Positions 1-59,336 of a stretch of 64,000 nucleotides of DNA are shown piece after piece. A program made the position numbers and the translations under genes. How positions within the stretch are numbered: position 1 is the stretch's first letter; each line of letters begins with the position of its first letter. The stretch lies in contig JAHCAG010000002.1 in the NCBI GenBank assembly GCA_019635015.1, positions 1 to 64,000 of the forward strand, written 5' to 3'. The stretch is from Burkholderiales bacterium (GTDB lineage: Bacteria; Pseudomonadota; Gammaproteobacteria; Burkholderiales; SG8-41). The notes under the pieces are model-generated. The model did not search any database and was not told the origin of the DNA. It worked only from the letters and a program-made list of their open reading frames with translations.

Positions 1-65
1 CTGTCCCGGACAAAGCGCTGCAGGAGGTCGAGGAGGAGGTTGAAGGATTCGGGATCGCGGATCAT
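1..65 (-). CDS. acyl-CoA dehydrogenase family protein, N-terminal fragment cut by the window edge
   Basis: An ATG at 65 on the minus strand opens a frame that runs off the left edge. Its first residues, MIRDPESFNLLLDLLQRFV, resemble the N-terminal helix of acyl-CoA dehydrogenases, which typically start with a short helix ending in RRFVRE. Only about 21 codons are visible, so no flavin or catalytic motif can be checked. It follows the ThDP enzyme gene by about 40 bases in the same direction and is probably the next gene of that operon. The family call rests on resemblance of one helix only. Confidence 0.5.
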   Translation of the reverse strand, partial: MIRDPESFNLLLDLLQRFVRD

Positions 66-105
66 TTTTGGAATTGCCGGATGGACAGGGTCAAGCGCCG
101 CCCTG

Positions 106-1653: not shown

Positions 1654-1915
1654 AAATTGCCTTTTTCCAAGTGCCTGAATTGAATAACCGCGCTTCTTGA
1701 TGCGAATCCGCCGCAGGGGATATCCACATGTTCCGCCCCCAAGAAACTCCCTTGTGCGCAAGCCGGAATGACGATTGAGAAATCCGGAGTTTCTACGTAA
1801 CCACCGGCAGCCCTAGGAACCCTTCCTTCTGGCTGGCCCTGACGTCCGTGTCAGCCGCTCCGCGGCGAGTTCGGGGAAAACCTGGCGGCATGGATTGTTG
1901 TGATTCAGGCCCTGC

Positions 1916-3334
1916 CTATACCGCTTTCTTGTCCGGATTTGTCAGAATTTCAGGCCTCAACAGTGCCTCAATTTTTTTTCTGGTCATGACTTTTCGCCTT
2001 ACCGCCAGATTGACCACGCTATCGCCTGTTTTTAACGCTTCTTTTGCGATGGCAGCCGCCATTTCATAACCAATGTGCGGGTTCAATGCCGTGGCCAGAC
2101 CAATTGAATACTTTACCTGGCGCGCCAGTACACCGCGGTTGGCCGTTATCTCCTTCACACACCTGTCACTCAATGCACAGAATGCCTGCCTCAAATGAGC
2201 AATGCTTTTGAATATGCTGTGTGCAATTATTGGCTCAAACGCATTCAACTGCAGCTGTCCCGCCTCCGCAGCCATGGTGACGGTAATATCATTGCCGATC
2301 ACTTCAAACGCGACCTGATTGACCACCTCCGGGATCACCGGGTTCACCTTGCCCGGCATGATGGAAGAGCCCGCCTGCACTTCGGGCAGATTGATTTCAT
2401 TGAAACCGGCCCGAGGTCCGGACGACAACAACCGCAAATCGTTGCAGATCTTCGAAATCTTCACGGCCACCCGTTTCAGCACGCTCGAAAGCTGCACAAA
2501 GGCTCCGCAGTCCTGGGTGGCCTCGATCAGGTTCTTTGCCGTGACAACCGGAACCCCTGTCAATTCGCCAAGCTTTGCGCAGACCACTTTTGCATAATCC
2601 GGGTGTGCGTTGATCCCGGTTCCGATCGCCGTGGCCCCAAGGTTGATTTCGGCAATCAGCCGACAAGCCTCGCGCAACCTGAGCTCGTCCTCTTCGATCA
2701 TGATCGCGTAAGTCAAAAACTCCTGCCCCAGGGTCATCGGCACGGCTTCCTGCAACTGCGTTCTCCCGATTTTCAGAATGCCGCCGAATTCACGGGCCTT
2801 GGCCTCAAAATCCGCTCTCAAAACGGCCATTGAATCCAGCAATTTTTCAATCTCGTCATATGCCGCCACTTTTATGGCCGTCGGGTAAACATCATTGGTA
2901 CTCTGGCTCATGTTTACATGACCCAACGGGTGCAGATAAGCGTAGTCCCCTTTGCCGCGCCCCATCAACTCCAGCGCCCTGTTGGCAATGACTTCATTTG
3001 CATTCATGTTCGTCGAGGTTCCGGCACCACCCTGGATCACGTCGACCACAAAATGCTCATGCAAGTCCCCGCTTCTGATTTCCTCACACGCGGAAACTAC
3101 AGCGGACATTCTTGGCCTGCCCAACAACCCGATTTCATGGTTCGCAGCTGCGGCCGCCTGCTTGACGGATGCCATCGCAACCACGAACGAGTAATGCCTG
3201 GATACGGGAATCCCGCTGATCCTGAAATTATCAAGGGCTCGACTGGTATGAATGCCATAGTAATGCCTGCATGAAATTCTTCTTTCCCCAATCAGGTCCC
3301 GCTCAACCCGCGTCTTTTTTTCCACAACAATCAA
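1916..3334 (-). CDS. aspartate ammonia-lyase-like enzyme (aspartase/fumarase superfamily)
   Basis: This 472-residue protein carries the superfamily signature GSSIMPGKVNP at about 322-332 and the conserved GTSTNMN (105-111) and QSTND (144-148) segments. Aspartase deaminates L-aspartate reversibly to fumarate and ammonia in the cytoplasm; relatives act on fumarate, argininosuccinate or substituted aspartates. The N-terminus (RVERDLIGERRISCRHYYGIH) matches aspartase rather than class II fumarase. No in-frame ATG precedes the conserved N-terminus; the possible initiators are TTG at 3334 or GTG at 3325, neither with a clear ribosome site. It sits between a Bug receptor gene and the ThDP enzyme gene in the same direction, so it may work on a compound other than plain aspartate. 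Confidence 0.85.
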   Translation of the reverse strand: MIVVEKKTRVERDLIGERRISCRHYYGIHTSRALDNFRISGIPVSRHYSFVVAMASVKQAAAAANHEIGLLGRPRMSAVVSACEEIRSGDLHEHFVVDVIQGGAGTSTNMNANEVIANRALELMGRGKGDYAYLHPLGHVNMSQSTNDVYPTAIKVAAYDEIEKLLDSMAVLRADFEAKAREFGGILKIGRTQLQEAVPMTLGQEFLTYAIMIEEDELRLREACRLIAEINLGATAIGTGINAHPDYAKVVCAKLGELTGVPVVTAKNLIEATQDCGAFVQLSSVLKRVAVKISKICNDLRLLSSGPRAGFNEINLPEVQAGSSIMPGKVNPVIPEVVNQVAFEVIGNDITVTMAAEAGQLQLNAFEPIIAHSIFKSIAHLRQAFCALSDRCVKEITANRGVLARQVKYSIGLATALNPHIGYEMAAAIAKEALKTGDSVVNLAVRRKVMTRKKIEALLRPEILTNPDKKAV

Positions 3335-3381
3335 TCATTGGTTATTTGCACGACATGAGGCTGCTGCCAATGCGGTCCGTT

Positions 3382-4338
3382 TCACCAACTGATCCCGGTT
3401 TCGGTCTGCAGTTTTCTGAACTTGGCGATCTCTCCCGATATAGTTTCGGACAGTTTCTCGGGACTGCTTGCCACCGTATGGAACCCCATGGATGAATATC
3501 TGCCCGAGGTATCCCCACCCAGCACCACCTTGACAACCTCCCTGTTCAAAACCTGGATCAGATGCCCTGGGGTATTCGGAGGGGCGAACAGGCCATTCCA
3601 GAATTCGAACGAGTACCCGGCGAGTCCTGATTCCGAAAATGTGGGAACATCCGGAAGCAAGGTCAGGCGACTGGCGGTGGTGACGCCGATCGCGTACAGC
3701 CTTCCTGACTTCAAGTGGGATACGCATGCAACCGGAGTCAACAGGGCCATTGCCACTTCCCCGGATATCGCAGCCACTTCTGCCGGTGAACTGCCTTTGT
3801 AACGTATCGACTCAGCGCGGAAACCCGCCGCCTTCATAAGCGCGGACAGGGCGATCTCCCCGGTTGGCCCGGCCGATCCGATATTCAGTTTGCCCGGCTG
3901 CTTTCGGGCCAATGTCAGCAGATTCGACATGCTGCGGACCGGCAATGAAGGGTGTGCAACCAGCACCAGTCCGGTCGAGTTGATCAATGAAATGGGCGCG
4001 GTGTCAGCAGACGGGTCAAAACGATTGCTTTTGTAAAAGACCGGCATTATCGAATGCGTTCCCGTATTGCCGAGCATTAACGTTCTTCCGTCAGGGGCCG
4101 CGTTTTTCACCTGCTCGATCGCTGATTGCGCCACGGTTCCCGGCCTGTTTTCGACCACGAATTGTTGCCCCAGTGCGCTGCCCAATTGGGAAGTCAACAT
4201 CCGCATGGTCACGTCAGAAGGCCCGCCAACGGCACCGACAACCAATACCCTGGTTGCCCCCCCGGGGGATTGGGCTTGCACACCCGAAAACGCAAAAACA
4301 GAAAATACGCAGAACATAAGATTTGGCAATGCCTTCAT
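3382..4338 (-). CDS. Bug-family periplasmic solute-binding protein (TctC-like)
   Basis: The 318-residue protein starts with a signal peptide ending near VQAQ and continues into the Bug fold, including GGPSDVTMRML, the ENRPG segment and the YKGSSPAEVAA segment typical of tripartite tricarboxylate transporter receptors. These proteins bind carboxylated ligands in the periplasm. The start at 4338 is fixed by GAGGAGGG a few bases upstream. It lies between the aminotransferase and aspartase-like genes in a leftward operon, so its ligand is probably the substrate of that pathway. No TctA or TctB membrane subunit is encoded in the window; such orphan receptors are common in Burkholderiales. Confidence 0.92.
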   Translation of the reverse strand: MKALPNLMFCVFSVFAFSGVQAQSPGGATRVLVVGAVGGPSDVTMRMLTSQLGSALGQQFVVENRPGTVAQSAIEQVKNAAPDGRTLMLGNTGTHSIMPVFYKSNRFDPSADTAPISLINSTGLVLVAHPSLPVRSMSNLLTLARKQPGKLNIGSAGPTGEIALSALMKAAGFRAESIRYKGSSPAEVAAISGEVAMALLTPVACVSHLKSGRLYAIGVTTASRLTLLPDVPTFSESGLAGYSFEFWNGLFAPPNTPGHLIQVLNREVVKVVLGGDTSGRYSSMGFHTVASSPEKLSETISGEIAKFRKLQTETGISW

Positions 4339-4403
4339 ATTCCCTCCTCGTGTCTCGCAGAAAAACACATTGGGGCGACTCACCCCGGTCCCGGCTTTCC
4401 CGC

Positions 4404-5600
4404 TTATTGAAGCAAAGCCAGTGATTTTTTTATGCGGTTTAATCCATCCTCAAGCTGACGTTCCGGCCGGGTATAAGCGATCCGGATGCAGTTTTTATCT
4501 CCAAATGGATCACCCGGTATTACCGCAACCCCTGAGTGATTGAGAAGATAGTCACACAAACCCTGCGCATCATTAATCACATACTCATTGCACCTGGTGC
4601 CAAAATAATCCTTGATATCGGGGAAGAAATAAAAAGCCCCCTGCGGGAGGCCGGTTTTGATACCGGGCAGCCGGCACAAATGTTCGTAGACTAGGTCTCT
4701 CCGCCTTCTGTATTCTTCAACCATGTATAAACTTCTGTCAGGGCCACCGCTTATCGCCTCATAAGCCGCCCTCTGCGAGATGGATGAATTCGCCGAAGTC
4801 ATCTGCCCCTGGATTCTGGTTGCGGCATCGGCAATCCATTGCGGCGCCCCCATATACCCAACCCTCCATCCGGTCATCGCATGCAACTTTGAGAATCCAT
4901 TCACCGTTACCGTCCGGTCAGCCATCCCCGGCAACGAGGCAATACTTGCGTGACTCCCCGAATATTCGATGAATTCATAAATTTCATCGGAAATGACAGT
5001 AATACCCTCATTCGACCTTACAACTTCCGCTATGCCTTCCAGCTCATCTCTTGAATAAACAGCTCCAGTAGGATTTCCCGGAGATGAAAACAGGATCAGC
5101 TTTGTTCTCCGTGAAACGGCCTTTCCCAATTGCTCTTTTGATACCTTGAAACCCGATTCTGCATTGGCCTTTACAAACACCGGCGTTGCACCGGTAATCC
5201 TGATCAATGACTCATAACTCACCCAGTGCGGAGAAAAAACAATCACCTCATCGCCCGGGTCCAGTAACGCCAGCAATACATTGACAATAGCCTGCTTTGC
5301 GCCATTGGAAACAACAATTTGCTCATGGGTGTAATTGATATTGTTTTGGGTATTGAACTTTGATGCTATTGCCCTGCGCAGATCCAGATACCCGGCAACA
5401 GGGGGATAAGAAAAGTACAACCTCGAATCGATTGCCTGCTTTGCCGCTTCGCAAATATATTCGGGAGTGGGAAAATCCGGCTCTCCGAGCGAAAGATCGA
5501 CAATATCAAGACCGCACTCCCGAAGTTTCCTGACCCTGGCCGCTACCGCCAATGTTTCAGATTCACTTATGCCAATTACCCTCTCAGATAATCTCTTCAT
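4404..5600 (-). CDS. class I/II pyridoxal-phosphate aminotransferase (aspartate aminotransferase-like)
   Basis: A 398-residue fold-type I aminotransferase. Visible landmarks are SPGNPTG (173-179), SDEIYE near 204-209 for cofactor contact, the Schiff-base lysine in GFSKLHAMTGWR (Lys238), and the substrate-carboxylate arginine in CIRIAYTRPE near the C-terminus. It would transfer an amino group between an amino acid and a 2-oxo acid in the cytoplasm; donor specificity is unknown. Its start overlaps the 3' end of the NIPSNAP gene by 17 bases, so translation is probably coupled. Base composition is clearly AT-richer than the housekeeping genes to the right, consistent with acquisition by transfer. 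Confidence 0.92.
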   Translation of the reverse strand: MKRLSERVIGISESETLAVAARVRKLRECGLDIVDLSLGEPDFPTPEYICEAAKQAIDSRLYFSYPPVAGYLDLRRAIASKFNTQNNINYTHEQIVVSNGAKQAIVNVLLALLDPGDEVIVFSPHWVSYESLIRITGATPVFVKANAESGFKVSKEQLGKAVSRRTKLILFSSPGNPTGAVYSRDELEGIAEVVRSNEGITVISDEIYEFIEYSGSHASIASLPGMADRTVTVNGFSKLHAMTGWRVGYMGAPQWIADAATRIQGQMTSANSSISQRAAYEAISGGPDRSLYMVEEYRRRRDLVYEHLCRLPGIKTGLPQGAFYFFPDIKDYFGTRCNEYVINDAQGLCDYLLNHSGVAVIPGDPFGDKNCIRIAYTRPERQLEDGLNRIKKSLALLQ

Positions 5601-5928
5601 GAATCAGTCTTTCAAGTTTTCCCGAAAAAAATGGCGCGCATTTCATGACACGAACCTCCCTGTCCAGGATCAATGGTTTTATTTTCGCCACATAATCCTT
5701 CCAGGCGGGATCGGACTGCATTGCGGATTGACTGGCGGCCTTGTCATCCAGATCGACAAATCCCCACAACTGCACCAGAGTGTCTTTTTTATCCCCTTCC
5801 TCATAAAAAAAGCCGACCATGTGTTTTGAATGTTTTTTTTGCACCGCCATGCCTTCGGCTTGATACAAATTCAGGAAATCCAGGATCCGGCCTTTTTCAA
5901 TTGCATACACTCTTTCTTCAATAATCAT
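5584..5928 (-). CDS. NIPSNAP family protein (dimeric alpha-beta barrel)
   Basis: The 114-residue protein begins MIIEERVYAIEKGRILDFL and contains GMAVQKKHSKHMVGFFYEE and VQLWGFVDLDDKAASQSAM, the pattern of NIPSNAP proteins: a strand EERxY, then a strand with GxF, then LVxLWxYxDLxxR. The biochemical role of bacterial members is unknown, though they often sit in catabolic operons. The ATG at 5928 is chosen because the conserved strand starts there; a 31-residue upstream extension is in frame but unlike the family. It is the first gene of a leftward operon and lies 93 bases downstream of a conserved upstream element shared with the second operon. Confidence 0.85.
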   Translation of the reverse strand: MIIEERVYAIEKGRILDFLNLYQAEGMAVQKKHSKHMVGFFYEEGDKKDTLVQLWGFVDLDDKAASQSAMQSDPAWKDYVAKIKPLILDREVRVMKCAPFFSGKLERLIHEEII

Positions 5929-6020
5929 GTTTACCGTCTCTATTCGTTTTGAATCTTCTTTTGAAATTGAAAAATGCCCATGCAGTCCGCTACTGCCAAT
6001 TTCCGCACCCCATAAATACA

Positions 6021-6200
6021 TGGCTGGCCGCTCATTTGAATTATTTATCTCCGCTCATTCTTAGTAAATTGATTATTTGTCATTAGCCGATGACTTTTTG
6101 TCCCGCCCCGGCCAATGAAATCTCATGTTCTGACGGCACTACTTCCGGGAAACAGACCGCTTCACTGAACATAATTCATGCGGTGATTCCTGGATGGAAG
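6021..6200 (-). promoter_or_regulatory. shared upstream control element, copy 1
   Basis: This stretch aligns, apart from small indels, with 11701-11877 at about three identical bases in four. It lies 93-272 bases upstream of the NIPSNAP start, in the position of a promoter region. Two palindromes are conserved between copies: GTCAT-N6-ATGAC (6079-6094) and TTCC-N-GGAA (6143-6151). An ATAAATAATTC block near 6039-6049 is also kept and could contain the -10 region. No -35 box of good quality is visible, which would suit an activator-dependent promoter. The regulator is not encoded in the visible part of the island. Confidence 0.65.
6079..6094. promoter_or_regulatory. candidate operator, GTCAT-N6-ATGAC
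   Basis: Perfect 5-bp inverted arms with a 6-bp spacer. The arms are identical in the second copy of the element (11755-11770) while the spacer differs at two positions, the pattern expected for a dimeric regulator's site. Confidence 0.5.
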
Positions 6201-6459
6201 CTGGAAATCACGCGCTGCGGGCCTGCGCGTCCTGCTTGCCATCAGTCTGTGATGATCTGTTGAACCGGAATGGCGGCAGGTGGATTTATTGGCGCGAGAT
6301 TGAGAGGCGACCGTCTGCTGGTTTGCGGTGTGCCGGGGAAATCATTTTGCCCATGTCATCGCAAGCCGAAGAGGGTCGAGTTTAATCGCGGAGTTCCAGG
6401 CCTCAATTACGCCGAATACCTGCAAGCAAGGAATGGAGCCGATGTCCTGTGTGTCGGCG
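6201..6459. other. intergenic stretch without a recognisable gene
   Basis: Lies between the shared control element and the end of the next Bug gene. Only short frames occur here and none resembles a known family or has a convincing ribosome site. It may hold the 3' untranslated region of the second operon and decayed coding sequence. Confidence 0.5.
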
Positions 6460-7434
6460 CTACTCTTGTTTGATGTCGAGTTCGTGAACTACGGGTCCCC
6501 AGTCACCAAGCCCCTCCTTGAGCAATACCGTCAGTGCGTCTGGGGTTGATCCTTCGCCTTGAAAAGCCTGTTGTTCGAACTGCACCTGCACCGAAGGCCG
6601 CTTCAGGACCTGGTTCAGATCGAGAGACAATCGCTTCACGATATCATGGTGCATCCTTGCAGGGCCGAACACACCCGCCCACAACGTGACTGTGACTTCC
6701 GGCATGCCTGCCTCAGTTATCGTGGGTATCTCCAGGGCGGCCGGGCTTCGCCTCGGCAGGAGAATTGCCAGCATGCGCAATCTTCCAGTGCGCACATGGG
6801 GCATGGCGGATTGAATGGGCACGATCAACGCCTGAACCCGTCCGGCAACGATATCTGGGATCGCCTGTGCCGCGCCCTTGTAGCGCACCCTCTCCATGAC
6901 AATTCCGCTCGCCTTCAACAGTTGGGCAAAAGCAACAACGTCGCCCAGGCTGCTGGTCGCATAGTTGAGCTTTCCAGGATTGGCCCGCGCATGTCCAACC
7001 AGTTCCGCCAGGGATGTGACCGGCAAATCCGTGTGCACGAACAATCCCAGCGTGAACCGGCCAACGAGTGACACGGGTGCAAAACTCTTGATCGGATCGA
7101 AGACCGGATTCTTGTGCGTGAGCGGCACACCCACCAGCGTGGAGTTCCCTGCCCAGAAAAGTGTGTGTCCATCAGGCGGCGAATTGAGAACCGCCTGAGC
7201 CGCGATCACACCGTCGGCACCAGGCCTGTTCTGGACGATAACCTGCTGCCCAAGCGCCTGCGAGAGTTCCTGGCTCACGATGCGGGCCAGACCATCGCTC
7301 GGACCACCAGCGAGAAAAGGCACGATTAGCCTTACGGGCTTAGTCGGGTATGCCTGCGCCTGCGCTTGCGCAAGCGCTGCGCCTCCTTGAATCACAAGCA
7401 GCAGCAACACCTTGATGGTCGATCGATATGTCAC
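6460..7434 (-). CDS. Bug-family periplasmic solute-binding protein (TctC-like)
   Basis: The 324-residue protein has a signal peptide (MTYRSTIKVLLLLVIQGG, ending near AQAQA) followed by YPTKPVRLIVPFLAGGPSDG, the QNRPGADG segment, PPDGHTL and RYKGAAQAIPDIVAG, all typical of the Bug receptor family that delivers organic acids to tripartite tricarboxylate transporters. Initiation is probably at the GTG at 7434, since GGAGGG lies seven bases before it. It is the last gene of the leftward aldehyde dehydrogenase / GMC / Bug / Bug operon. No transporter membrane subunits are visible. Confidence 0.92.
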   Translation of the reverse strand: MTYRSTIKVLLLLVIQGGAALAQAQAQAYPTKPVRLIVPFLAGGPSDGLARIVSQELSQALGQQVIVQNRPGADGVIAAQAVLNSPPDGHTLFWAGNSTLVGVPLTHKNPVFDPIKSFAPVSLVGRFTLGLFVHTDLPVTSLAELVGHARANPGKLNYATSSLGDVVAFAQLLKASGIVMERVRYKGAAQAIPDIVAGRVQALIVPIQSAMPHVRTGRLRMLAILLPRRSPAALEIPTITEAGMPEVTVTLWAGVFGPARMHHDIVKRLSLDLNQVLKRPSVQVQFEQQAFQGEGSTPDALTVLLKEGLGDWGPVVHELDIKQE

Positions 7435-7464
7435 GCCCGACCCTCCTCTGGAAAAGCATCCTGA

Positions 7465-8463
7465 TTAGTCGGCGCGGATGCCATGGCGCTTGATGACAGA
7501 CTCCCAACGCTCACGATCCCTGCGGATGAGGGCGGTAAAGTCCTCGGGGGTTCCGCCAAGCGTAGTGGCACCGAAGAGCGTCATCCGCTCTTTGAACTCC
7601 GGCGAATTGAGAACAACGGCCGCATCGCGGTGAATTTTGTCAATGATCTCCTGCGGCGTACCGGCGGGCACCATTAGTCCGAACCAGGCACCTGCCTCGA
7701 CATTCCTGTATCCGGCTTCGGCAAACGTTGGAAGGTCAGGAAACTGCTCCAAGCGGCGGGATCCCGCATTCGCGAGCGGCCTGAGTTTCCCGGATTTGAC
7801 CCCTGCGACCGCGGTTTGCAGCCCCACGAGACTTAGATTCACCTCACCGGCAATCAAGGCCTGGTCTTGGAGCGCCCCTCCGCGAAACGGCACATGCACC
7901 AAATCGATCCCGGCCTCATCGGAAAACAACACCATGCCAAGGTGACCGGATAACCCGTGACCAGGCGTGGCGTAGGTTATTTTTCCGGGCCGGGTTTTGG
8001 CGTATGCGACCAGTTCGGCAATCGAATTTACCGATGGAGGGATGCTATTGCTCACCACCAGGATGTTTGAAATGGACGCCAGCAGCAGCACCGGGGCGAA
8101 TGCGTCCCTTCCATAAGGCACTTTGGGATAAATCATGTGATTGGATACGTTCGTGGTATTCGTCCCGATCAGGATCGTGTATCCATCTGGCGCGGACTTG
8201 GCTGCGAAGTCGGCACCTATCATGCCGCTCGCCCCGGGGCGATTGTCCACGATGACGTTCTGGTTCCAAATCTTCGCAAGCTGGCCGGCAACCACGCGCC
8301 CAAGAGTATCGGTGAAGCCACCTGGTGGAAATGTCACGACCAGCCGGACCGAACGGTTCGGATATTGCTGCGCGAGCAGACTGGTCGACGCGAGGCTCAA
8401 TACCGCCGCAGTCGCAACCCCGAGAATCCACGCACCACGCGTGCGCTCAAACTGGAACATCAT
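7465..8463 (-). CDS. Bug-family periplasmic solute-binding protein (TctC-like)
   Basis: A 332-residue receptor with a signal peptide ending near LLAQQYPN, then VRLVVTFPPGGFTDTLGR, DNRPGASGMIGADF, SAPDGYTILIGTNTT and VPFRGGALQDQALIAGEV, the standard Bug family landmarks. The ATG at 8463 follows AAGGAGG closely. Its first codons overlap the end of the GMC oxidoreductase gene by 17 bases, so the two are probably co-translated. It is followed by a second, clearly different Bug gene, so the operon has two receptors, perhaps for the alcohol-derived acid and a related compound; this is inference. Confidence 0.93.
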   Translation of the reverse strand: MMFQFERTRGAWILGVATAAVLSLASTSLLAQQYPNRSVRLVVTFPPGGFTDTLGRVVAGQLAKIWNQNVIVDNRPGASGMIGADFAAKSAPDGYTILIGTNTTNVSNHMIYPKVPYGRDAFAPVLLLASISNILVVSNSIPPSVNSIAELVAYAKTRPGKITYATPGHGLSGHLGMVLFSDEAGIDLVHVPFRGGALQDQALIAGEVNLSLVGLQTAVAGVKSGKLRPLANAGSRRLEQFPDLPTFAEAGYRNVEAGAWFGLMVPAGTPQEIIDKIHRDAAVVLNSPEFKERMTLFGATTLGGTPEDFTALIRRDRERWESVIKRHGIRAD

Positions 8464-10105
8464 GTCTTCCTCCTTCAGTAAGTTGACCGTTGATTTCTCT
8501 TCTGCCAGACCGGATCATGTCGGCTGCTTTCTCGGCGATCATCAGCACGGAAGCGTTGAGATGCGCCGAGATAAGCCGAGGCATGACCGATGCATCCACA
8601 ACCCGCAGGCGCTCCACGCCGAGCACCCGGAGCTCCGGGTCGAGTACTGCACTTGGCCCACTTCCCATCGCGCAGGTTCCGGTCGGGTGAAACACCGTTG
8701 CCACAGTGCGCCGGATCCATTCCACGATGTCCGATTTCGTCCTGACATCAGCGCCAGGCGCGATCTCGGCTCCGCGAAAGGGATCGAGTGGCGCTGCGCA
8801 AGCCATCTGGCGCGCGCGTTCAAAGCCTTCGAGCAAAGTGACCAAATCTCCTGGCTCAGAGAGAAAATTAAAGTGGATCCGCACGGGATCCAGTGGCCCG
8901 GCCGAGCGCAGCAGGACTTCACCCCGGCTACGTGGATGCAGCAGCGCTGGACGAATGCCGAATCCGTCCCTGTAGGCAGGCCGCAGCCACGGGAACCAGA
9001 GCCGTGCACCAGGCGGTGCGCACCGGATCATGAACTCGATGTCCGGGACCACGAAATCCGGACAGGTCTTGACGAACGCGAGCAACCCGCCAGGCAGCTC
9101 CGTGGCTGCGCCCGCACCGAAGAGATATGCCGCCAGCATGCTGGCTGACATCCGATCGAACCGCATCCTCCTATGAAAAGGCCCCGGCTCCCGTCGCTCC
9201 CAATACATGGAAAGGGCAAGATGATCTTGCAGGTTTTTCCCAACTGGCAGGTCCACCAATGGCTTAATGCCGAACTCCTGCAGATGGCCAGCGGGTCCGA
9301 TACCCGACAGCATCAGCAGTTGCGGGGTATTGAACGTTCCGGAGGACAGGATCACTTCACGATCCGCGATCACACGCACGCGGCTGCCTCGGTGTATGTA
9401 TTCGAGGCCGGTTGCACGCCGTCCTTCCACTGCGACCTTGGCTGCATGTCCACCCGTGACAAGGTGAAGATTCGGGCGCCGGAGTGCCGGCTTAAGGTAC
9501 GCCGCAGCGGCAGACGATCGCCGCCCTCCTCGAATGCTGTACTGGGTCCGGCCAAAACCTTCCGGCCGCAGGCCATTCAAGTCATCCGTGTGCGTGAATC
9601 CGGAAACTTGGCCCGCCTCAATCCACGCGTCGAGAAGCGGATCCCGGAACCGCCCGCCTTCCACACCAACCGGCCCGTCACCTCCACGCACATCGTCCCC
9701 GCCCCTTTCCCAACTTTCGCTTCGCTTGAAATATGGCAAAACATCCTTGAATGACCACCCGTGCGCCCCGTCTTGCACCCATTGGTCATAGTCCCCGGGA
9801 TGCCCGCGCGTGTACGCCATCATGTTGATTGAGGACGATCCGCCGAGAACCTTGCCGCGCGTCGCGACAATTGCTCTTTCATGCAACTGCAATTCCGGCT
9901 CGCTCTTCAATCCCCAATCAAACATGCCTCTCTCGAGCATCCTGCCAACGCCGAGCGGAATATGAATCAGCGGATGGCGATCATGCCCGCCCGCCTCGAC
10001 AAGGAGCACATGTATCCCCGGATCTTCGGTCAGGCGGTTCGCAAGCACACAGCCCGCCGATCCAGCCCCTACCACGATATAGTCGTAAGATCTTCTGCTG
10101 AGCAC
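8447..10105 (-). CDS. GMC-family FAD-dependent oxidoreductase (choline / alcohol dehydrogenase-like)
   Basis: A 552-residue flavoprotein with the ADP-binding GAGSAGCVLANRL motif at about 13-25, the GMC signature region around GKVLGGSSSINMMAYTRG, the second signature SSGTFNTPQLLMLSGIGP, and the active-site FHPTGTCAMG (His near 473). The closing SAHLNASVLMIAEKAAD carries the second active-site position (His near 515, Asn two residues on). GMC enzymes oxidise primary alcohols to aldehydes. Initiation is likely at the GTG at 10105. The gene follows the aldehyde dehydrogenase gene, so alcohol to aldehyde to acid is the obvious route. Substrate is unknown. Confidence 0.93.
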   Translation of the reverse strand: MLSRRSYDYIVVGAGSAGCVLANRLTEDPGIHVLLVEAGGHDRHPLIHIPLGVGRMLERGMFDWGLKSEPELQLHERAIVATRGKVLGGSSSINMMAYTRGHPGDYDQWVQDGAHGWSFKDVLPYFKRSESWERGGDDVRGGDGPVGVEGGRFRDPLLDAWIEAGQVSGFTHTDDLNGLRPEGFGRTQYSIRGGRRSSAAAAYLKPALRRPNLHLVTGGHAAKVAVEGRRATGLEYIHRGSRVRVIADREVILSSGTFNTPQLLMLSGIGPAGHLQEFGIKPLVDLPVGKNLQDHLALSMYWERREPGPFHRRMRFDRMSASMLAAYLFGAGAATELPGGLLAFVKTCPDFVVPDIEFMIRCAPPGARLWFPWLRPAYRDGFGIRPALLHPRSRGEVLLRSAGPLDPVRIHFNFLSEPGDLVTLLEGFERARQMACAAPLDPFRGAEIAPGADVRTKSDIVEWIRRTVATVFHPTGTCAMGSGPSAVLDPELRVLGVERLRVVDASVMPRLISAHLNASVLMIAEKAADMIRSGRREINGQLTEGGRHDVPV

Positions 10106-10136
10106 GGTGCGCCGTCTCGAATCTATTGGGCCGTAC

Positions 10137-11585
10137 TCAGTTCAACTGCGTGACGAACTTCGTTACGAGGTAACCGTCGAAATTCTCAGATCCCCCTTTG
10201 CTCCCGTAGCCACTGTCTTTGGTGCCGCCGAATGGGGTCTCGGCAAGCGCCATGCCAAAGTGATTGATATTGACCATCCCCGCCTCGAGCCCATTCGACA
10301 CAGCGGTTGCGACCTTCGTTGATGTTGTGAATGCATACGAAGCAAGACCATACGGCAGACTGTTCGCTCGCGCGATGACCTCGTCTAATGTCTTGAAACG
10401 CACGATCGGCGCGATCGGCCCGAAAGGCTCGGTCGTCATCAACCTGCAGTCATCGGGAAGATCAGTCACCACGGTTGGCGAAAAAAAATTGCCGCGTACA
10501 CCAATCCTGGACCCACCCACCAGAATCCTGCCGCCGCGCCGATCAGCATCCTCCATGAACGATGCCATCACCGGCATGCGGCGCGCAATCGCGAGCGGCC
10601 CCATCCCGGTATCCTTCTCCAAACCACTGCCGACCTTGAGTGCCCTCGCGTAGTCGGCGAATTTCCCGACGAAGCGGTCGTAAACCTTCTCGTGTACATA
10701 CATCCGCGAAGGTGACACGCAGATCTGGCCCGAGTTCCGGTACTTGAAGGCGGCCAGCATCTCCGCGGCACGTTCAACTTCGGCATCCTCGAACACAATC
10801 GCCGGAGCGTGCCCGCCCAACTCCAGCGTGCAACGCTTCACCAGCGATCCGGCGAGCGCCCCGAGTTGCATCCCAACGGCCACCGAACCCGTGAACGAGA
10901 TGACTCGCACGATGGGTGAACGAATCAGGTAGCTGGAAATTTCCGCTGGATCACCCCAGACGCAGTTCAAGCACCCGGCAGGCAGTCCGGCGTCATGGAA
11001 TATGCGTGCCAGCGCGACTGTTGCACTGGGCGATTCTTCGGGCCCCTTCAGAATGACGGTGCAACCCGAGGCCAGCGCCGCAACAACAGCGCGGATGGGG
11101 AACGGGAAATTCCAAGGTGTGAAGGCCGCGCATACACCTGCAGGCTCACGGATCACTATCTGGCGCACACCCTCAGCACGCGGAGGAATTACACGACCGT
11201 AGATACGGCGGCCCTCCTCCGCGCTCCACTCCGCATGCTCTGCACCGTTGTTGACCTCGTTGATTGCATCCGCTATTACCTTGCCCTCGTCAAGCGTGAT
11301 GTTTCGCGCGATCTGTTGTGCACGGTCGCGCACCAGTTCAGCCGCCTTTCGAAGCACCTTCGAGCGCTCCATTGGCGAGGTTGCGCGCCAGATCCGGAAC
11401 GCCTTCTGTGCAGCAAAGAGCGCGCGATCAAGATCGTCCTTTGTCGCGTGCGGCAACTGGCCGAGAACCTCGTCGGTGGCGGGGTTGAGGACATCCTGCG
11501 TCTTCCGACCTTCATGCCCCAGGAATTGTCCATCAATGTAAAGGGATAGATCTTCGTAAACTCGAGCGCCCGTAGGCATATCCAT
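10137..11585 (-). CDS. NAD(P)-dependent aldehyde dehydrogenase (succinate-semialdehyde dehydrogenase-like)
   Basis: The 482-residue protein has the complete ALDH active site: PWNFPF (Asn159), the general-base glutamate in LELGGHAP (Glu255) and the nucleophile in [11 protein letters not shown] (Cys289). Architecture and length fit the succinate-semialdehyde / glycolaldehyde dehydrogenase branch. It would oxidise an aldehyde to the acid in the cytoplasm. The start at 11585 has AGGAG upstream and removes a 32-residue extension that looks unlike the family. It is the first gene of the operon that continues with the GMC oxidoreductase and two Bug receptors, and its promoter region contains copy 2 of the shared control element. 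Confidence 0.93.
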
Positions 11586-11700
11586 CTGAGAATGCTCTCC
11601 TGTATCTTGAACAAAGTTCCGGAAGTGGCGTGTTCTGCTGCCATGGCCCCGCAATGCCAGTGCGATGCGTGACCGGGCCAACCTGTGCCCCTCATTTGAC

Positions 11701-11877
11701 TGGCTGCTTTTTTGAATTATTTATTCCCCATCCATCCTAAGGAATTGATTATTTGTCATCAGTCGATGACTTTTTGTCTCACCCTGACCAACAAAATTTT
11801 ATGTTCTGACAGCGCCGTTTCCAGGAAACAGACGGCTTCACAGACCATCGTTCACGTTGGTTATTCCCAGCAGGAAG
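11701..11877 (-). promoter_or_regulatory. shared upstream control element, copy 2
   Basis: Diverged duplicate of 6021-6200, here 116-292 bases upstream of the aldehyde dehydrogenase start. Both palindromes are kept: GTCAT-N6-ATGAC at 11755-11770 and TTTCCAGGAAA at 11818-11828. The ATAAATAATTC block recurs near 11712-11722. Similarity stops at about 11877, where high-GC sequence of a beta-propeller gene begins on the other strand. Confidence 0.65.
11755..11770. promoter_or_regulatory. candidate operator, GTCAT-N6-ATGAC
   Basis: Second copy of the palindrome at 6079-6094; arms identical, spacer changed at two of six positions. Confidence 0.5.
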
Positions 11878-12326
11878 ACAGCTGCCAAATCTGGGTCGCC
11901 ACCGACCACGGGAAGGTGGCTTTCGACCCCGCCAGCGGCAAGGTGCTGGCCTCGATCCCCGCGCCCGGCCAGGGCAACGACTCGGGCCTCGCCTGGGCCG
12001 AGGGCAGCCTGTGGGTGGGCCAGTACCGCGAGCGGAAAATTTTCCAGATCGATCCGGAAACCGGCAAGGTCCTGCGCAGCATCGAATCGAACCGCTTCGT
12101 CACCGGCGTGACCTGGGTCGACGGCGAACTGTGGCACGGCACCTGGGAAGGTGATGACAGCGACATCCGCCGCATCGATCCGCAGAGCGGCGCGGTGCTG
12201 GAACGGCTGGAAATGCCCAAGGGCGTTGGTGTCAGCGGACTGGAGTCCGACGGCAAAGACCTGTTTTATGCCGGTGGCGGCGGCAGCGGGCGGGTGCGCG
12301 CGGTCAGAAGGCCGAAACGGGGCTGA
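11878..12326 (+). pseudogene. 5'-truncated beta-propeller protein (glutamine cyclotransferase / Vgb-like)
   Basis: The readable 3' part encodes about 148 residues with three or four repeats of the type LAWAEGSLWVGQYRERK and VTWVDGELWHGTWEGD, each followed by IDPxTGxVL, and ends SGRVRAVRRPKRG. This repeat pattern is that of small beta-propellers related to glutamine cyclotransferase and streptogramin lyase, which as recalled are about 230 residues long, so roughly the first third is missing. The frame stays open leftward only through the control element of the aldehyde dehydrogenase operon, which is not coding for this family. The gene appears to have been cut by insertion or rearrangement at about 11877. 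Confidence 0.65.
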
Positions 12327-12372
12327 TCAAAAAGCGAAGCCTCGCTGTCGGGAAACGCAGGGCCGGCAGGCC

Positions 12373-14166
12373 CTACCCCGCCCTGCGCCCCGCAATCCAC
12401 CCCAGCAGTTCCTCCGCCGGAAACGGCCGCGCGATGGCATAACCCTGCGCATGGTCGCAGCCGTGGGCCGCGAGGTATTCGATGGCGGCGGGATCCTCGA
12501 CGCCTTCCGCGGTCACTTCCAGCCCGAGGCCCTGCGCCATCGCGATCACGGTCTTGACGATCGACTGGTCGCGGCGGTCGGTGAGCAGGTTGCGGACGAA
12601 GGCCTGGTCGATCTTCAGGTGATCGACCGGCAAGGCCTTCAGGTACTGCAGCGAAGACTGCCCGGTCCCGAAATCATCGACCGCCAGCCGGAAACCGCGC
12701 TGCTTGAGGGTCTGCAGCAGGCGCGCGCTGATGTCCTGGTCGCCGAGGATGCCGCTCTCGGTGATCTCGAATTCGATCTGCCGCGGATCGATCGTGTGGC
12801 GCGCGGCAAGGTCGTCGATGAACTGCGGCAGATCGGGGTCGCCCAGGTCGCGCGCGGTGAGGTTGATCGACACCTGCAGGTCCGGAAGCTCGGCGCGCCA
12901 GACCTGCAGGTGGTCAAAGGCGGATTCCAGCACCCAGCGGGTCAGCAGGTGGATCAGCGAGGTGCGCTCGGCATGGGGAATGAAGGTCGCGGGCGGTATG
13001 CCGTCGCTGCCGGGCGGCTGCCAGCGCATCAGCATCTCGACGCCGGTGTAGCGCCGGTCGGAGAGACGCAGCTTGGGCTGGCACCAGAGCCGGAATTCAC
13101 CGGCGGCAACGGCGTCGGGAATGCGGCCCAGCAGCGTCAGTGTCTCGCGGTTGGCGGCATCGGCGCCGCGGTCGTAGATCGACCAGGCCTGGCCCTTCTT
13201 CATCGCCGCGTGCATCGCGATGCTGGCCTTCTGGATCAGTTCCTCGGGTTCGCTGCCGTGCAGCGGGAACTCGGCCATGCCGATGCTGGTGTCGACGTAG
13301 ACGTGGATGTCATCCACATCGAAGGAGCGGCACAGCACGGCGGTGACGCCGCGCAGGGACTCCGACGAGCCCTCGGCCCGGGTCACCGCGACGAAACGGT
13401 CGGTATGGTACTGGCACAGCAGGAAGGGTTGAGGCAGGCAGCCGGCTATGCGCTCGTACACCGCGGTCATCAGCGGCTTGCTGAGATCCGGCCCCAGCGT
13501 GTTGATGATCTCGAGATAGTTGTCGACGTTGATCACGACGACCAGGAATTTCGGCGACAGAGTGTGCCGGCGCAGCGCATCACGCAGCGCGCGCTCGAGG
13601 TACATGCGGTTGGGGAGTCCGGTGTGGACATTGCGCTCCGACACCCATTGCGTGCGCGTGATGTGGGCGCGCATCACCGAGAACAGGTAACCCGCAAGGC
13701 CGCCGACCAGGCAGAAGAAGAACATGCGGTAGACCCAGTTGACCGTGTGCTGCAGCTCGCCGGTGACGGTATCGATGGGCATGTACGGCCCCAGCACGAG
13801 GCCGCCGGCGATGCCGGCGATGATTCCGCCGGGCAGGCCGAACAGCAGACCCGCGATCACCAGCGCCAGGTACATCGCGTGCGAATAGACGAACTTGATG
13901 CCGCCGGTCGCATGCACCAGGAAACCGACGCCGGCGATCAGCAGCACAACCAGGATGAGGGCCGCGATCCTGACCGCGGGACGGTCCGCGTAATCGAACC
14001 ACCGGACATTGCGCAAATGGCGCAACAGCGGACTCTGCATGTCCATCAGACTTGCCCTGTCTGCCGGGGGAGCACGGCGATCCGCGCGTCCGGCTGCGAT
14101 TGTTTTTGTTGTTGCGGGAGCGGGCAGCACCGTCACACCTTCGCGCGCCGGTCGCATGTCCACCAT
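12373..14166 (-). CDS. membrane-bound GGDEF-EAL protein, probable c-di-GMP phosphodiesterase with degenerate GGDEF
   Basis: A protein of up to 597 residues with several N-terminal membrane segments (about 66-86, 95-125, 147-165), a GGDEF-fold domain (about 175-335) and a C-terminal EAL domain (about 345-590). At the GGDEF signature the sequence is YHTDRF (253-258), so cyclase activity is unlikely. The EAL motif reads EML (377-379), but the glutamates and aspartates of INLTA, FEITES, VDDFGTG and LKID and the TAEGVE segment are kept, so hydrolysis of c-di-GMP is plausible. The start is uncertain: 14166 or the ATG at 14046, which drops a 40-residue low-complexity leader. It is divergent from a second EAL gene. 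Confidence 0.9.
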   Translation of the reverse strand: MVDMRPAREGVTVLPAPATTKTIAAGRADRRAPPADRASLMDMQSPLLRHLRNVRWFDYADRPAVRIAALILVVLLIAGVGFLVHATGGIKFVYSHAMYLALVIAGLLFGLPGGIIAGIAGGLVLGPYMPIDTVTGELQHTVNWVYRMFFFCLVGGLAGYLFSVMRAHITRTQWVSERNVHTGLPNRMYLERALRDALRRHTLSPKFLVVVINVDNYLEIINTLGPDLSKPLMTAVYERIAGCLPQPFLLCQYHTDRFVAVTRAEGSSESLRGVTAVLCRSFDVDDIHVYVDTSIGMAEFPLHGSEPEELIQKASIAMHAAMKKGQAWSIYDRGADAANRETLTLLGRIPDAVAAGEFRLWCQPKLRLSDRRYTGVEMLMRWQPPGSDGIPPATFIPHAERTSLIHLLTRWVLESAFDHLQVWRAELPDLQVSINLTARDLGDPDLPQFIDDLAARHTIDPRQIEFEITESGILGDQDISARLLQTLKQRGFRLAVDDFGTGQSSLQYLKALPVDHLKIDQAFVRNLLTDRRDQSIVKTVIAMAQGLGLEVTAEGVEDPAAIEYLAAHGCDHAQGYAIARPFPAEELLGWIAGRRAG

Positions 14167-14597
14167 TTGCGCACCCGTTCAGATCAGTTCAGATGCGACA
14201 CACCGAGAGTAATACCGAATTCGTGGCGTGACAAACCTAACAAAATGATAGATTTTGCCGCCGCACAGTCCATTATTTGCACGCGCAATGGCTGTAACAG
14301 CAATTCAGCAGACACTGATTCACGGTGGAAGAGCCCACCGGGCCACCGGTGACACCCGCATCCTCCCGTGGCCACAGCCGGCCTGCCATACCGGCATCCA
14401 CTCCGGCTCACCGCGCACCGCCAACCGGATGAGCCCGCCCGAAAATTCCGGAAGATGCGGGACAGGAATTAAAGTGAAGTTAAAATTGTCTCATCCAATC
14501 ATCGGCACACGCTTCCCCTGCAGCACGGGACCGGCACCGCCGACACCAAGAGCCGTATGGCCGGAAAAATGATCGGATCAGTTGAGCACGGAGGATC
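14167..14597. other. divergent promoter region between the two c-di-GMP genes
   Basis: About 430 bases with no gene recognised. It must hold promoters for both the GGDEF-EAL gene (leftward) and the EAL gene (rightward). The part 14210-14310 is AT-richer than the rest. No confident -35/-10 pair or operator could be assigned. Confidence 0.5.
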
Positions 14598-15413
14598 ATG
14601 ATGATGAGCGAAAAAAACTTCAAATCACTGTCATGCAAAGAGTGCCGCGAAGGCGCGGGCCTCGATTTCGACTTCACGATGGCGTTTCAACCGTTCGTCG
14701 ATGTCTCAACCGGCGGCATATTCGGCTACGAGGCCCTGGTGCGCGGCCCCAATCAGGAAGGCGCCGGCGTCATCCTCGGCAAGGTAAACGACAGCAACCG
14801 CTACCAGTTTGATCAGGCTTGCAGGGTGAAGGCGATCGGGCTCGCGGCAAAGCTGGGGCTGGAGGGGGTTTTGAGCATCAACTTCCTGCCGAATGCGATT
14901 TACCGGCCGGAGACCTGTATCCGCGCCACGCTGGAAGCTGCGGAAGAGCTGGACTTCGCGACCGAACGCCTGATGTTCGAAGTCACCGAGGGCGAGCGCG
15001 TCAGCGACCATTCCCATCTGACCAATATTTTCAAGGAATACAAGCGCATCGGTTTCAGGACCGCCATTGATGATTTCGGCGCGGGATATTCCGGACTCAA
15101 CCTGCTCGCGGAATTCCAGCCGGACTACATCAAGCTCGACATGGCATTGACGCGCAACATCGACAAGGACCGCGTGCGCCGCGCAATCGTGCACGGCATC
15201 GTGAGCACCTGCCAGGAACTCAACATGAGGATCATTGCCGAGGGCATCGAGTCTGCAGGCGAGTGCCTGGCCCTGCAGGACGAAGGCGTCACCCTGTTTC
15301 AGGGTTATTTTTTCGCCAAACCCGGCTTTGAACATCTGCCCCGGATTTCCCCCGACGTCCTGGCATCGGTAAAACCGCGCCGCACCGCCGACATCCGCCG
15401 CAGGCCGGGCTAG
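14598..15413 (+). CDS. stand-alone EAL domain protein, probable c-di-GMP phosphodiesterase
   Basis: A 271-residue single-domain EAL protein. Catalytic landmarks are intact: EALVRG (45-47 for EAL), NFLPNAI, FEVTEGERV, AIDDFGAGYSG, YIKLD, IIAEGIES and the FQGYFFAKP end. The N-terminus carries SCKEC, a CxxC pair at residues 13 and 16, ahead of the domain. Three consecutive ATG codons occur; GGAGG at 14590-14594 fits 14601 or 14604 best by spacing, so the first two methionines may not be used. It would hydrolyse c-di-GMP in the cytoplasm and may work with, or against, the divergent GGDEF-EAL protein. Confidence 0.92.
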   Translation: MMMSEKNFKSLSCKECREGAGLDFDFTMAFQPFVDVSTGGIFGYEALVRGPNQEGAGVILGKVNDSNRYQFDQACRVKAIGLAAKLGLEGVLSINFLPNAIYRPETCIRATLEAAEELDFATERLMFEVTEGERVSDHSHLTNIFKEYKRIGFRTAIDDFGAGYSGLNLLAEFQPDYIKLDMALTRNIDKDRVRRAIVHGIVSTCQELNMRIIAEGIESAGECLALQDEGVTLFQGYFFAKPGFEHLPRISPDVLASVKPRRTADIRRRPG

Positions 15414-15415
15414 CC

Positions 15416-16150
15416 TTAGCCGGTGATCTTGCCCGCCAGCACCTCGGCCACATGCAGCACCTGTGTCTGCGCGTCGCCGCGCCGGCGCAAGCGGCCTTCG
15501 ATGTTGAGCATGCAGCCGAGGTCGCCGAGCACCACGGCGTCGGCGCCGCTTGCCGCGATGTTCTCGCATTTGCGCTCGGCAATGTGCGCGGAGATCTCGC
15601 CGTACTTGACGGCGAAAGTGCCGCCAAAACCGCAGCACTGTTCACACTCTTCCATTTCGCGCAGTGTTGCGCCCTCGACCTGCGCCAGCAGCGCGCGCGG
15701 CTGCTGCTTGATGCCCAGTTCCCGCAGTCCCGCGCAGGAATCATGATAAGTTATTGATTTTATTGATATTTTTGACTTTGGCGCAAAACGGGCGATGTTG
15801 GCCAGAAAGTCGGTCAGTTCGTAGGTGCGATCCGCCAGCGCCTTGAGCGGTGCCCCCTCCTCTTCCGGCAGATCCTTCAGCAGCTCGGGGTAATGCGCGC
15901 GGATCATGCCGGCGCAGGAACCGGAAGGCACGACAACATATTCGCAGTCGGCAAACTCGCGCCACAGCTTGCGCGCCAGCGCGAGTGCCGAAGCGCGGTC
16001 GCCGGAGTTGTAGCCGGGCTGGCCGCAGCAGGTCTGGGTTTCCGGCACAACGACTTCGCATCCTGCCTCCTCCAGCAACTGCAACGCGGAGAATCCGATG
16101 CGCGGGCGCATCAGGTCGACGAGGCAGGTCACGAAAAGGCCGGTTTTCAT
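15416..16150 (-). CDS. LutA/GlcF-like (Fe-S)-associated CCG-domain protein
   Basis: The 244-residue protein has two CCG cysteine-rich domains: TQTCCGQPGYNSG (Cys41-42) with SGSCAGM, and HDSCAGL with CEQCCGFGGTF (Cys172-173). This is the layout of LutA, the subunit of the LutABC L-lactate oxidation complex, and of the C-terminal half of glycolate oxidase subunit GlcF. LutB and LutC genes are not adjacent. The ATG at 16150 begins the conserved MKTGLFVTCL. Codons for residues 124-138 (15742-15785) are strikingly AT-rich, with three ATA and three TCA codons in an otherwise high-GC gene. Confidence 0.85.
   Translation of the reverse strand: MKTGLFVTCLVDLMRPRIGFSALQLLEEAGCEVVVPETQTCCGQPGYNSGDRASALALARKLWREFADCEYVVVPSGSCAGMIRAHYPELLKDLPEEEGAPLKALADRTYELTDFLANIARFAPKSKISIKSITYHDSCAGLRELGIKQQPRALLAQVEGATLREMEECEQCCGFGGTFAVKYGEISAHIAERKCENIAASGADAVVLGDLGCMLNIEGRLRRRGDAQTQVLHVAEVLAGKITG
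15742..15782. other. AT-rich motif inside the LutA-like gene
   Basis: Plus-strand GTTATTGATTTTATTGATA resembles the dispersed AT-rich motif seen in intergenic regions at 26128, 30145, 50437, 52401 and 59720. Here it is coding, through rare AT-rich codons. Confidence 0.45.
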
Positions 16151-16172
16151 GCCGGCGATGATACGCGCAAAA

Positions 16173-16200
16173 ACAAACCCCGGCCGCAGCCGGGGTTTGT
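16173..16200 (-). terminator. rho-independent terminator of the exoprotein gene
   Basis: A perfect 12-bp stem (16173-16184 with 16189-16200) around the loop CGCA. On the minus strand it ends in GGTTTGTTTTTG, giving the T-run, 18 bases after the stop of the exoprotein gene. It also separates that gene from the downstream LutA-like gene. Confidence 0.85.
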
Positions 16201-16217
16201 GGCGAGGCTGCCGCCGT

Positions 16218-19200
16218 TCAGCGGCAGACCGGCGCATCCTTCTTCTTTTCGTCTTCCGTTTCCTTGAACACGTCCTTGTCCTTTTCGGCGTCCGGCGGTT
16301 CCTGCGATTGGCCGGTGGCGACGATCAGGGTCTGCACCGGCGGTTCGATGCCGGCCGTCGATCCGCTGCCCGAGCCGCTGCCGCCGCTGCCGGTCAGTCC
16401 ATAGGTCACGATCATGCTGCTGCCGAGAATCCCGGGGCTGCCGCCGGCATAAAACCCGGAACCACTGGCATCGGTGATCGCGCCCTCGACGCCGTTGACG
16501 AAATAACCGCCGCTGGCGAGATTGGGAAAATCGAGGTACACCGTGGTCGATGCCACCGTTTCGACCACTGCAGTGGCACCCGTCCCAGCGCCGGTCACCA
16601 GGTTCACGCTGCCGCCGACGTTGATGAACACTTCGCTCGAGGCGAAGATTTCCGCGCTCGATCCGGCACCGGCACCGCCGGTCAGGTTGACGCTGCCGCT
16701 GGCATCGATCGTGACCATGTCGCCCGAGATCCGTGCGTACTGCGAGCCGCCGCTGCCGCCGGTGAGGCTGACGTTGCCACCGGAGGTCAGCGTGACTTCG
16801 CCATCGCTGCTCACCGAAGTCGACTGCGTCGTCGAGGCCAGCGCGATGCCGGTGGCCGCGCTGATGTGGATCGGGCCGCCGTAGGAGGTGCTGAGCGAGG
16901 CATCATGGATGGTCACCGCGCCGTTGGCGGCGGTCATCTGGATGCTCGACGGCGACAGCGACCCGGCGCTGACGGAGGCACCGCCATTGATGCCGATGCC
17001 GCCACTGGCATGAAGCTCGACCGGTCCGCCCGCCGCCGACACCGAGCCCCCGGTCAGGACCAGGTCGCCCGAGGCGGCAACCGCCTTGAACTTGTTGTAG
17101 GCCGACACCGACCGCACGGTCAGATTGCCGCTGGCCTGGTTGATGATGACATCGCCACTGGTGCCGGTAATGCTGCCTGCAGACTGCGAAAAGGCATCGT
17201 TGACGGTCAGGCTGGACACCGCGATGGAGCCGGCAGTCTGCGTCAACGCATCCACTTCCAGCGCACCGCCCTGCACCGTGCCGGCCGTGTCCAGCGAGGC
17301 CAGCACCGCGCCGTTGACCAGGTTCAGCGTGCTGCCCGCGCCGACCGAAACCGCACCCGTGGCATCGAAATTGTCATTGAAGTTGACGGTCTGGCCGCCA
17401 CCGATGGTGACTGCCGCATCGTTGAGCACCGTGACCGGCGCATTGATGGTCCAGGGCGTGGCGCCGCTGGTGAACACCACAGCGCCACCACCCTCGGGTG
17501 ACAGGGTCAGCGAGTCCGCCGCGATGGTGGCTGCCGCGCCTGCGTCGAAGACGATGTCGTCGCCGCCCGTGGCCGCCAGCAGGAGATCAATGCCCGACTG
17601 CGACAGGCTGCCATTGACCCGCAGCGCGCCATTGCTGGCCGTCAACGCGACCGTCTGTCCCGATGGCGCAGACAGCGTGTAGCGGCTGGTGAGCAGATCT
17701 CCCGACACCTGGTCGATGGCAATGCCGCCGGAAAGTGACGCAAGGTTCAGTGTTCCGGCACCCGGATCGACCTCGACAGACTGGCCGCCGACGGTGCCGA
17801 TCGAGGATGCGTTGCCGATGGTGATGTTGCTGGTTCCATCGCCCTCGACCGCGATCACCTCGCCGGCCGCACCGATCAGCTGGTTGCCGCCGAGGTCGAG
17901 GTTGACGCTGCCGCCGTAATTCGCCGATGCGCTGGCCTTGATGCCGCTCACCGTGTCGACGGTTTCGAGGCTCAGGTTGCGCGTGTTCCTGAACTGCACC
18001 CGGCGGTCGGTGTCGACCACCGCATGGCCGGCAAAAGCGGCGAAGTGATCGACCTGGTTGTTCGCGGCACTCAGATCGACGTTGCCGTTGGTCGCGGTCG
18101 CGGCCAGGCCGTGCGCGGTGATGACGCCCGAGGCGTTCTGCCGGATCGTGGCATTGGTGTCGAGCAGGATCACGTTGCCGGCGGAACCCGCATTTACCGG
18201 CGCGTTGATTTCCATGCTGTTGCCGCCGACATCACTCAGGTGCGTGGTGAGGCGGATGTCGGCACCGGCCGGATTGGCGCCGGCGCCGGTGCTGTCGAGG
18301 CCGGCATTGATGTACAGCGCGCCCTCGCCCTGCAGCGGAGGGCTGCCGGCACCGGCGACCAGGTTGATCTCCCCGCCGCGCGTGGTGATGCTGCCGAACA
18401 CATTCAGAAAACCGCCGGCCTCCAGCGTGATACTGACGCCGTTGTTGGCCAGGAAAACGGGATCGTTGACGTTGATCGTGTCGTTGGCCTGCAGGATGAT
18501 GTTCGCCGTCGATGCATTGAGCACCGAGGGATGGATCGCAATGGTCGCGCCCGGCGCCTCGCTGAACAGCAGCTCGCCGTCACTCAGTGTGCCCGCCCCG
18601 AGCGTGCCGAGCAGGATTTCCAGCAGCCCCGACAGCAGTCCGGTCGTGGCGTCGATGTCGATGTTCTCCGGATCGAGCAGCAGCGTGCCCATCGTGCCAT
18701 GCGCCGCACCAAGATTCGCCGCGCCCTGGAAATCCAGCACACGTTTGCCCGAAACTTCGGCGAATCCGCCGTCGCCGCCCTGGGCACCGCCGCGGGCCGA
18801 GATGTTGCCGTAGTAACGCGTGATGTCATCCGCCCAGACGATGACCCTGCCGCCGTCACCCTCGGTGATCGCGTCGGCATGGATGGCGACGTTCTCTCCG
18901 ACATAAGTGCGGAAGGCATTGTCGATGCCGGGATTGGCGCCCTGGTAATCGCCGCCCACCAGCACCGTGCCGCCTCCGGTCTCGCCGGAAGCATCGATGC
19001 GGGCATGGCCGATCAGGCCAACCTTGTCGCCGAGGACATGGACGGTGCCGCCCTTGCCGGCGCTGCCCGTGGCCGCAATATCGCCTTCGACGAGGACCAT
19101 GTCACCGGCCTGGACATCGACCATGCCGCCGGTCGTGCCGCTGGCTGAAAGCTGGCTGGCTGCGGCAAGGTGCACATTTTTGCTCGCCTTGAGCAGGATG

Positions 19201-59263: not shown

Positions 59264-59336
59264 ACCGTTTCCAGTATGCCCCTGTGGCACCCGCTGCCGC
59301 AATGCGGCGGCGGAATCCCGATGCCCGGCCCGAATT

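Follow-up and report, generated by a model that had tools for sequence, protein, structure and literature searches.

A foreign segment of catabolic genes was probably inserted at a resident propeller gene of a variable chromosomal locus, by means of an incoming propeller fragment and host recombination, as judged from the two contigs that carry the ends of the segment. The window analysed is a 64,000-bp stretch, positions 1-64000 of contig C12 in a 42-contig metagenome-assembled genome (79.9% complete, 3.4% contamination), and holds one end of the insertion; contig C24 of that genome holds the other. The assembly does not bridge these contigs, and their join into one island is likely but unproven. 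The features of the window are listed in Table 1.

Table 1. Features at the island junction, in the foreign segment and in the resident flank (window coordinates)
Feature	Position	Strand	Basis and remarks
Acyl-CoA dehydrogenase gene, first 21 codons	1..65	-	Translation; matches genus gene start; runs off contig end
Foreign segment right arm, catabolic genes	66..11876	- (all)	ORFs, Pfam, GC 0.557-0.60
TPP enzyme gene	106-1761	-	
Fumarase-like lyase gene	1916-3334	-	
TctC receptor genes	within 66..11876	-	
Aminotransferase gene	4404-5600	-	
NIPSNAP gene	5584-6021	-	
GMC oxidoreductase gene	8447-10105	-	
Aldehyde dehydrogenase gene	10137-11585	-	
Element of about 170 bp	11697..11870	-	Upstream of aldehyde dehydrogenase gene, ends at junction
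Truncated propeller gene (probable pseudogene)	11877..12326	+	Native C-terminus RRPKRG*; open frame extends to 11700
Propeller blade 1 remnant at right junction	11877..11922	+	Alignment to C24
398-bp direct repeat common to window and C24	11923..12320	+	C24 reverse strand, about 6396-6793
GGDEF/EAL gene	12373..14166	-	Pfam; resident flank common to G019, G001, G014
EAL-domain gene	14598..15413	+	Pfam; resident flank common to G014, G006
LutA-like cysteine-rich-domain gene	15416..16237	-	Pfam; conserved right border of variable locus

The junction is marked by a step in base composition. GC content is 0.563 over 1-11876 and 0.651 over 11877-64000, and 80 windows of 11,876 bp slid along the right-hand part ranged from 0.637 to 0.668, with none below 0.637. 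The best change point was 11893, identical for the ranges 1-30000, 8000-16000 and 11600-12326, and none of 200 shuffles of 11600-12326 reached the observed change-point likelihood. The match to the propeller gene of congener G015 sets in at 11877 (85% over 68 bp, E 3e-15), which bears out the first-pass annotation in placing the change from low-GC sequence to high-GC propeller at about this position. On C24, positions 1-6395 have a GC content of 0.536 against 0.636 beyond, and the change points, 11893 in the window and C24:6402, lie close to where homology ends (11877 and 6396). The deviation extends to codon positions: GC3 is 0.46-0.68 in the right-arm genes versus 0.77-0.86 in the four genes to their right.

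The open frame of the window copy runs from a stop at 11697-11699 through 12326, and left of about 11876 its sequence is not propeller, so that the leftward continuation of the frame, noticed at first pass, does lead through unrelated DNA. The same annotation had the first third of the gene missing: compared with intact homologues, 69/219 residues (32%) are indeed lost, yet in two separate losses rather than one, namely residues 1-32 and an internal 37 residues (49-85). Through the internal loss, which spans one 37-residue period, blade 1 runs into blade 2 at the corresponding turn (FDPASG / IDPASG); judged from the alignment, this missing blade period is the product of an out-of-register join. 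The N-terminal strands in the strand list of the predicted model are also absent from the window copy, from which we infer that it is non-functional.

Intact homologues (in G015, G016, G004 and on C24) have about 210-219 residues, and 80 homologous loci all cover query residues from 12 or earlier to 212 or later, although this set retains the best-scoring matches and is thus biased towards full-length genes. The gene on C24 encodes 219 residues and is predicted to form a propeller (mean pLDDT 91.5), with five blades by our reading of the strand order. The best fold matches of the intact protein are the bacterial glutaminyl cyclases 3nok and 3mbr (PDB; TM 0.78 and 0.77), a likeness shared by the window copy through a Pfam Glu_cyclase_2 match; identity is 18-19%, however, and the likeness is one of fold and profile only. 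Propeller genes with 71-85% protein identity occur across Burkholderiales, Luteimonas/Lysobacter and myxobacterial genomes (loci L024-L103). An HTH-like gene accompanies the propeller gene in genomes G043 and G059. The propeller gene and HTH-like gene on C24 (L013 6390-8799) are possibly a mobile cassette.

The first-pass annotation had suggested looking at the island's far end for the 5' part that is missing, and C24, the site of the only other close propeller copy in the genome (96% over 411 bp), bears a complete gene there, next to low-GC catabolic genes. At 1-297 the contig carries the end of an acyl-CoA dehydrogenase gene, followed up to 6395 by genes for LysR, an amidohydrolase, a PuuE-like deacetylase, a TctC receptor and an amidase; from 6396 come the intact propeller, AHSA1-like, HTH-like, FRG-domain and Glycos_trans_3N genes and a last stretch which we take to be nitrite-reductase-like DNA. 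Since the far end holds a complete gene, the propeller gene was not split in two; about 400 bp were duplicated. In G016, G015 and G004 the DNA upstream of the propeller gene corresponds to the outer side of C24, and the DNA on the downstream side of that locus corresponds to the window from 15416. The flanks thus match opposite sides of one congener locus, and the two contigs are most simply taken as two sides of one locus. What had been called an insertion or deletion junction at one end of a transferred segment is accordingly read as an insertion junction, with C24 as the other end. The possibility, raised in the same annotation, that relatives carry the same short gene without an island does not apply to G015, G016 and G004, in which the gene is full-length; the closest relatives by LutA-like protein (G014, G019 and G001) have no close propeller match.

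The two copies of the 398-bp direct repeat differ at 12 positions, of which 6 are synonymous, and the last 102 bp are identical. Divergence between window and C24 declines rightward, from about 31% in 11877-11927 (16/51 bases, counted by eye on the alignment) through 12/296 in 11923-12218 to 0/102. G016 has the C24 base at 8 of the 12 differing sites and the window base at 2, and shares neither at the other 2. The stretch 11877-11927 differs from G015 at 9/51 bases, also by eye, and with the 16/51 against C24 this makes another propeller gene a possible source, from which the part left of 11923 may derive. The C24 copy loses identity one codon short of the native stop and has different terminal codons (RRPKRRA*), while the ending of the window copy is also seen in G015. 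Joining the flanks in silico gave an uninterrupted 218-residue propeller gene with the G015-type C-terminus. A hairpin with A and T tracts was seen by eye at the left island end (AAAAAACAGGGC ... GCCCTGTTTTTT, L013 on C24, about 6340-6390), and is absent from the output of a terminator scan run across the C24 junction.

We then compared the locus in the genus, in which the LutA-like gene is present in 19/21 genomes, own included. Stretches from 17 congeners were compared, and 12 of these carry both borders on a single contig. The distances between LutA and glycosyltransferase span 62 bp to 11.4 kb, namely 62 (G011), 501, 2501, 3627, 4392, 5283, 6691, 7882, 8238, 8713, 11384 and 11387 bp, where those of G019 and G001 include the resident GGDEF/EAL part of each; the other five (G014, G012, G006, G017 and G009) do not have both borders on the compared stretch. 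None of the 12 two-border congeners has DNA matches to the foreign genes between the borders. The same conserved borders enclose differing contents in these 12 congeners, as in a hotspot, and the contents at the locus include FRG, AAA plus subtilase, ThsB-like TIR and kinase genes. Such gene types are often linked to defence (C24 9117-9938 in L013; L014 3113-6509; L150 7348-7731; L149 2999-4081).

With regard to origin, no donor with the same segment was found among 399 genomes of the order, in a plasmid search or in the homologue flanks of five genomes. The right arm at 4300-11870 had no close DNA match in the 399 genomes, own included, and only single-gene homologues at 63-72%; the plasmid search returned only partial homologues at 60-80%; and the flanks of aldehyde dehydrogenase homologues in five order genomes shared no gene cluster beyond TctC receptors (27-38% identity). 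Among 20 congeners the best protein identity for the aldehyde dehydrogenase was 56%. The TPP gene is nearest to that of G020 (83%) versus 78-79% for G014, G001 and G019, the closest relatives of the genome itself, which suggests that this part came from a related donor lineage. A second TPP-gene copy in the genome, on C4, is likewise only 78-79% identical to the one in the window.

The element of about 170 bp that ends at the junction has a second copy at 6021-6190 (77% identity); as a two-copy repeat it measures 171 bp, with the junction copy at 11697-11867. Each copy lies upstream of a minus-strand operon, and both contain the dyad GTCATCG(A/G)CT(A/G)ATGAC. We read the element as an upstream region common to two operons, and possibly as the common operator of the island's two operons; a search with an operator-like pattern was circular, the pattern having been written from the two copies, and its match total was at chance level. 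Rfam gave only a chance-level match on window 1-16000, so no known RNA accounts for the element. A mobile repeat was rejected, as among the 399 order genomes the element is present only in its own. A match of a C24 repeat on C6 was likewise discarded as an element and is a paralogous acyl-CoA dehydrogenase. Elsewhere in the window there are a 107-bp direct repeat (89%) and a 44-bp palindrome-like match, at 59335-59573 and 51854-51897.

Together the two contigs carry about 18 kb of foreign DNA. C12 ends in the start of the acyl-CoA dehydrogenase gene and C24 in the end of one, in compatible orientations; measured on the intact G014 gene, some 784 bp would separate them, and joining the contigs would give an island of about 19 kb. 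Such a join through one dehydrogenase gene is likely but unproven, since a third contig, C23, also ends in the gene and competes for the same join: its positions 1-65 (L168) begin at the same alignment point as C12, and it carries the neighbour of the dehydrogenase found in most congeners. An assembly broken at a repeat would be expected to look like this, with three contigs ending in one dehydrogenase gene and two of them sharing the terminal base in the alignment. The join is also weakened by the resident rather than foreign look of the dehydrogenase fragments at both contig ends, the one on C24 having a GC3 of 0.82 and 97% protein identity to G014.

We propose that a foreign catabolic segment entered the variable locus of this betaproteobacterium at the resident five-bladed propeller gene with its glutaminyl-cyclase-like fold. 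The incoming DNA, probably from a related lineage, would have carried a propeller fragment, and on one side host recombination between repeated blade motifs would have linked this fragment, out of register, with the resident gene; the other side would have been formed by an illegitimate or circular (Campbell-type) join, and the intervening segment thereby duplicated. The two ends differ in keeping with such unequal joins: at the C24 end the gene is complete and its last codons are insert DNA, and the copy at the window end begins within blade 1 and passes from there into blade 2. An incoming propeller fragment as the recombination partner is favoured by the repeats of coding sequence, the out-of-register blade join and the divergence that falls from left to right, and the homologous-recombination step is one we infer from the repeats and the divergence only. 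Pfam recognised no integrase or transposase in the 13 foreign genes, of 14 on C12 and C24, that were searched, and the two tyrosine-recombinase matches of the genome are on C13 and C34. With no mobility gene recognised in the foreign genes examined, homologous and illegitimate recombination are favoured over an integrase. Within the window no tRNA lies at the border, the sole tRNA there being at 36433-36517. Recombination between the repeats could excise the island and restore an intact propeller gene.

The main technical rival, a minor and in our judgement unlikely one, is a crossed assembly, in which the resident locus is uninterrupted, the foreign genes and a propeller fragment belong to another genome or locus, and the partners were swapped in the repeat. 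This would be in keeping with a metagenome assembly in which both contigs share 102 bp of exact repeat and end in a repeated dehydrogenase gene, C12 and C23 starting at the same alignment position; however, both contigs run through repeat copies that differ at 12 sites and in the blade-1 part, the bin contains no third close propeller copy or uninterrupted locus, and two wrong joins would be needed, both of them matching genus gene order. The replacement of the last codons of the C24 gene exactly at the end of identity brings to mind site-specific integration at the 3' end of the propeller gene, with the crossover at the repeat end (12320) and the truncated copy brought by the element, as integrating elements can rebuild the 3' end of their target gene. 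We consider this improbable: neither an integrase nor a transposase was recognised in the 13 foreign genes searched, the hypothetical gap would be taken up by the dehydrogenase gene, and the target-gene copy is about 0.4 kb here, whereas such copies on site-specific elements are usually short.

That the C24 dehydrogenase piece is host-like and that C23 holds the native gene start would also fit a rearrangement of the propeller locus with the native dehydrogenase locus, with C23 and C24 joined and no single island enclosed by C12 and C24. This is still less probable, as a translocation would be needed in addition to foreign DNA, and a single island accounts for both propeller ends and the gene order in fewer events. 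The native downstream neighbour of the dehydrogenase, sought in the genome with the G014 sequence, gave only a 79-bp match. Insertion by way of an incoming propeller fragment is the reading we retain. A more general version, in which propeller blades are landing pads where an incoming similar blade recombines out of register and inserts an integrase-free island, is doubtful, and if true, the duplicated blades would later permit clean removal, bringing back the intact gene and making the disruption reversible.

The event is a clear, neatly preserved but ordinary gene transfer into a variable chromosomal spot, of a kind already known. It illustrates how an island can enter without a recognised integrase: both ends are located, each bears an imperfect coding-gene repeat, and the spot is variable in most of the congeners examined. 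Homology-facilitated illegitimate recombination, reportedly described by de Vries and Wackernagel in 2002, would account for the asymmetric ends by one homologous and one non-homologous join. The foreign segment can be set beside several published systems. Variable segments flanked by repeats made up 10-18% in four alignments (PMC2884548). The microcin H47 island of E. coli is a 13-kb system with extensive imperfect direct repeats and no recombinase of its own; its excision and integration were shown experimentally, with a hybrid repeat remaining at the empty site (PMC3191183, PMC5426353). It resembles the present island in the flanking imperfect direct repeats and the lack of an own recombinase, whereas its cargo and repeat are others and the mobility of the present island is hypothetical. 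For transfer hotspots without mobile elements, homologous recombination in flanking core genes has been proposed (Oliveira et al. 2017, PMC5635113). These hotspots share with our locus the variable content between the same two conserved genes, the lack of recognised mobility genes and the proposed homologous recombination at the borders; they differ in that their recombining flanks are core genes, whereas the sequence duplicated in our case is a propeller gene, accessory and located within the spot.
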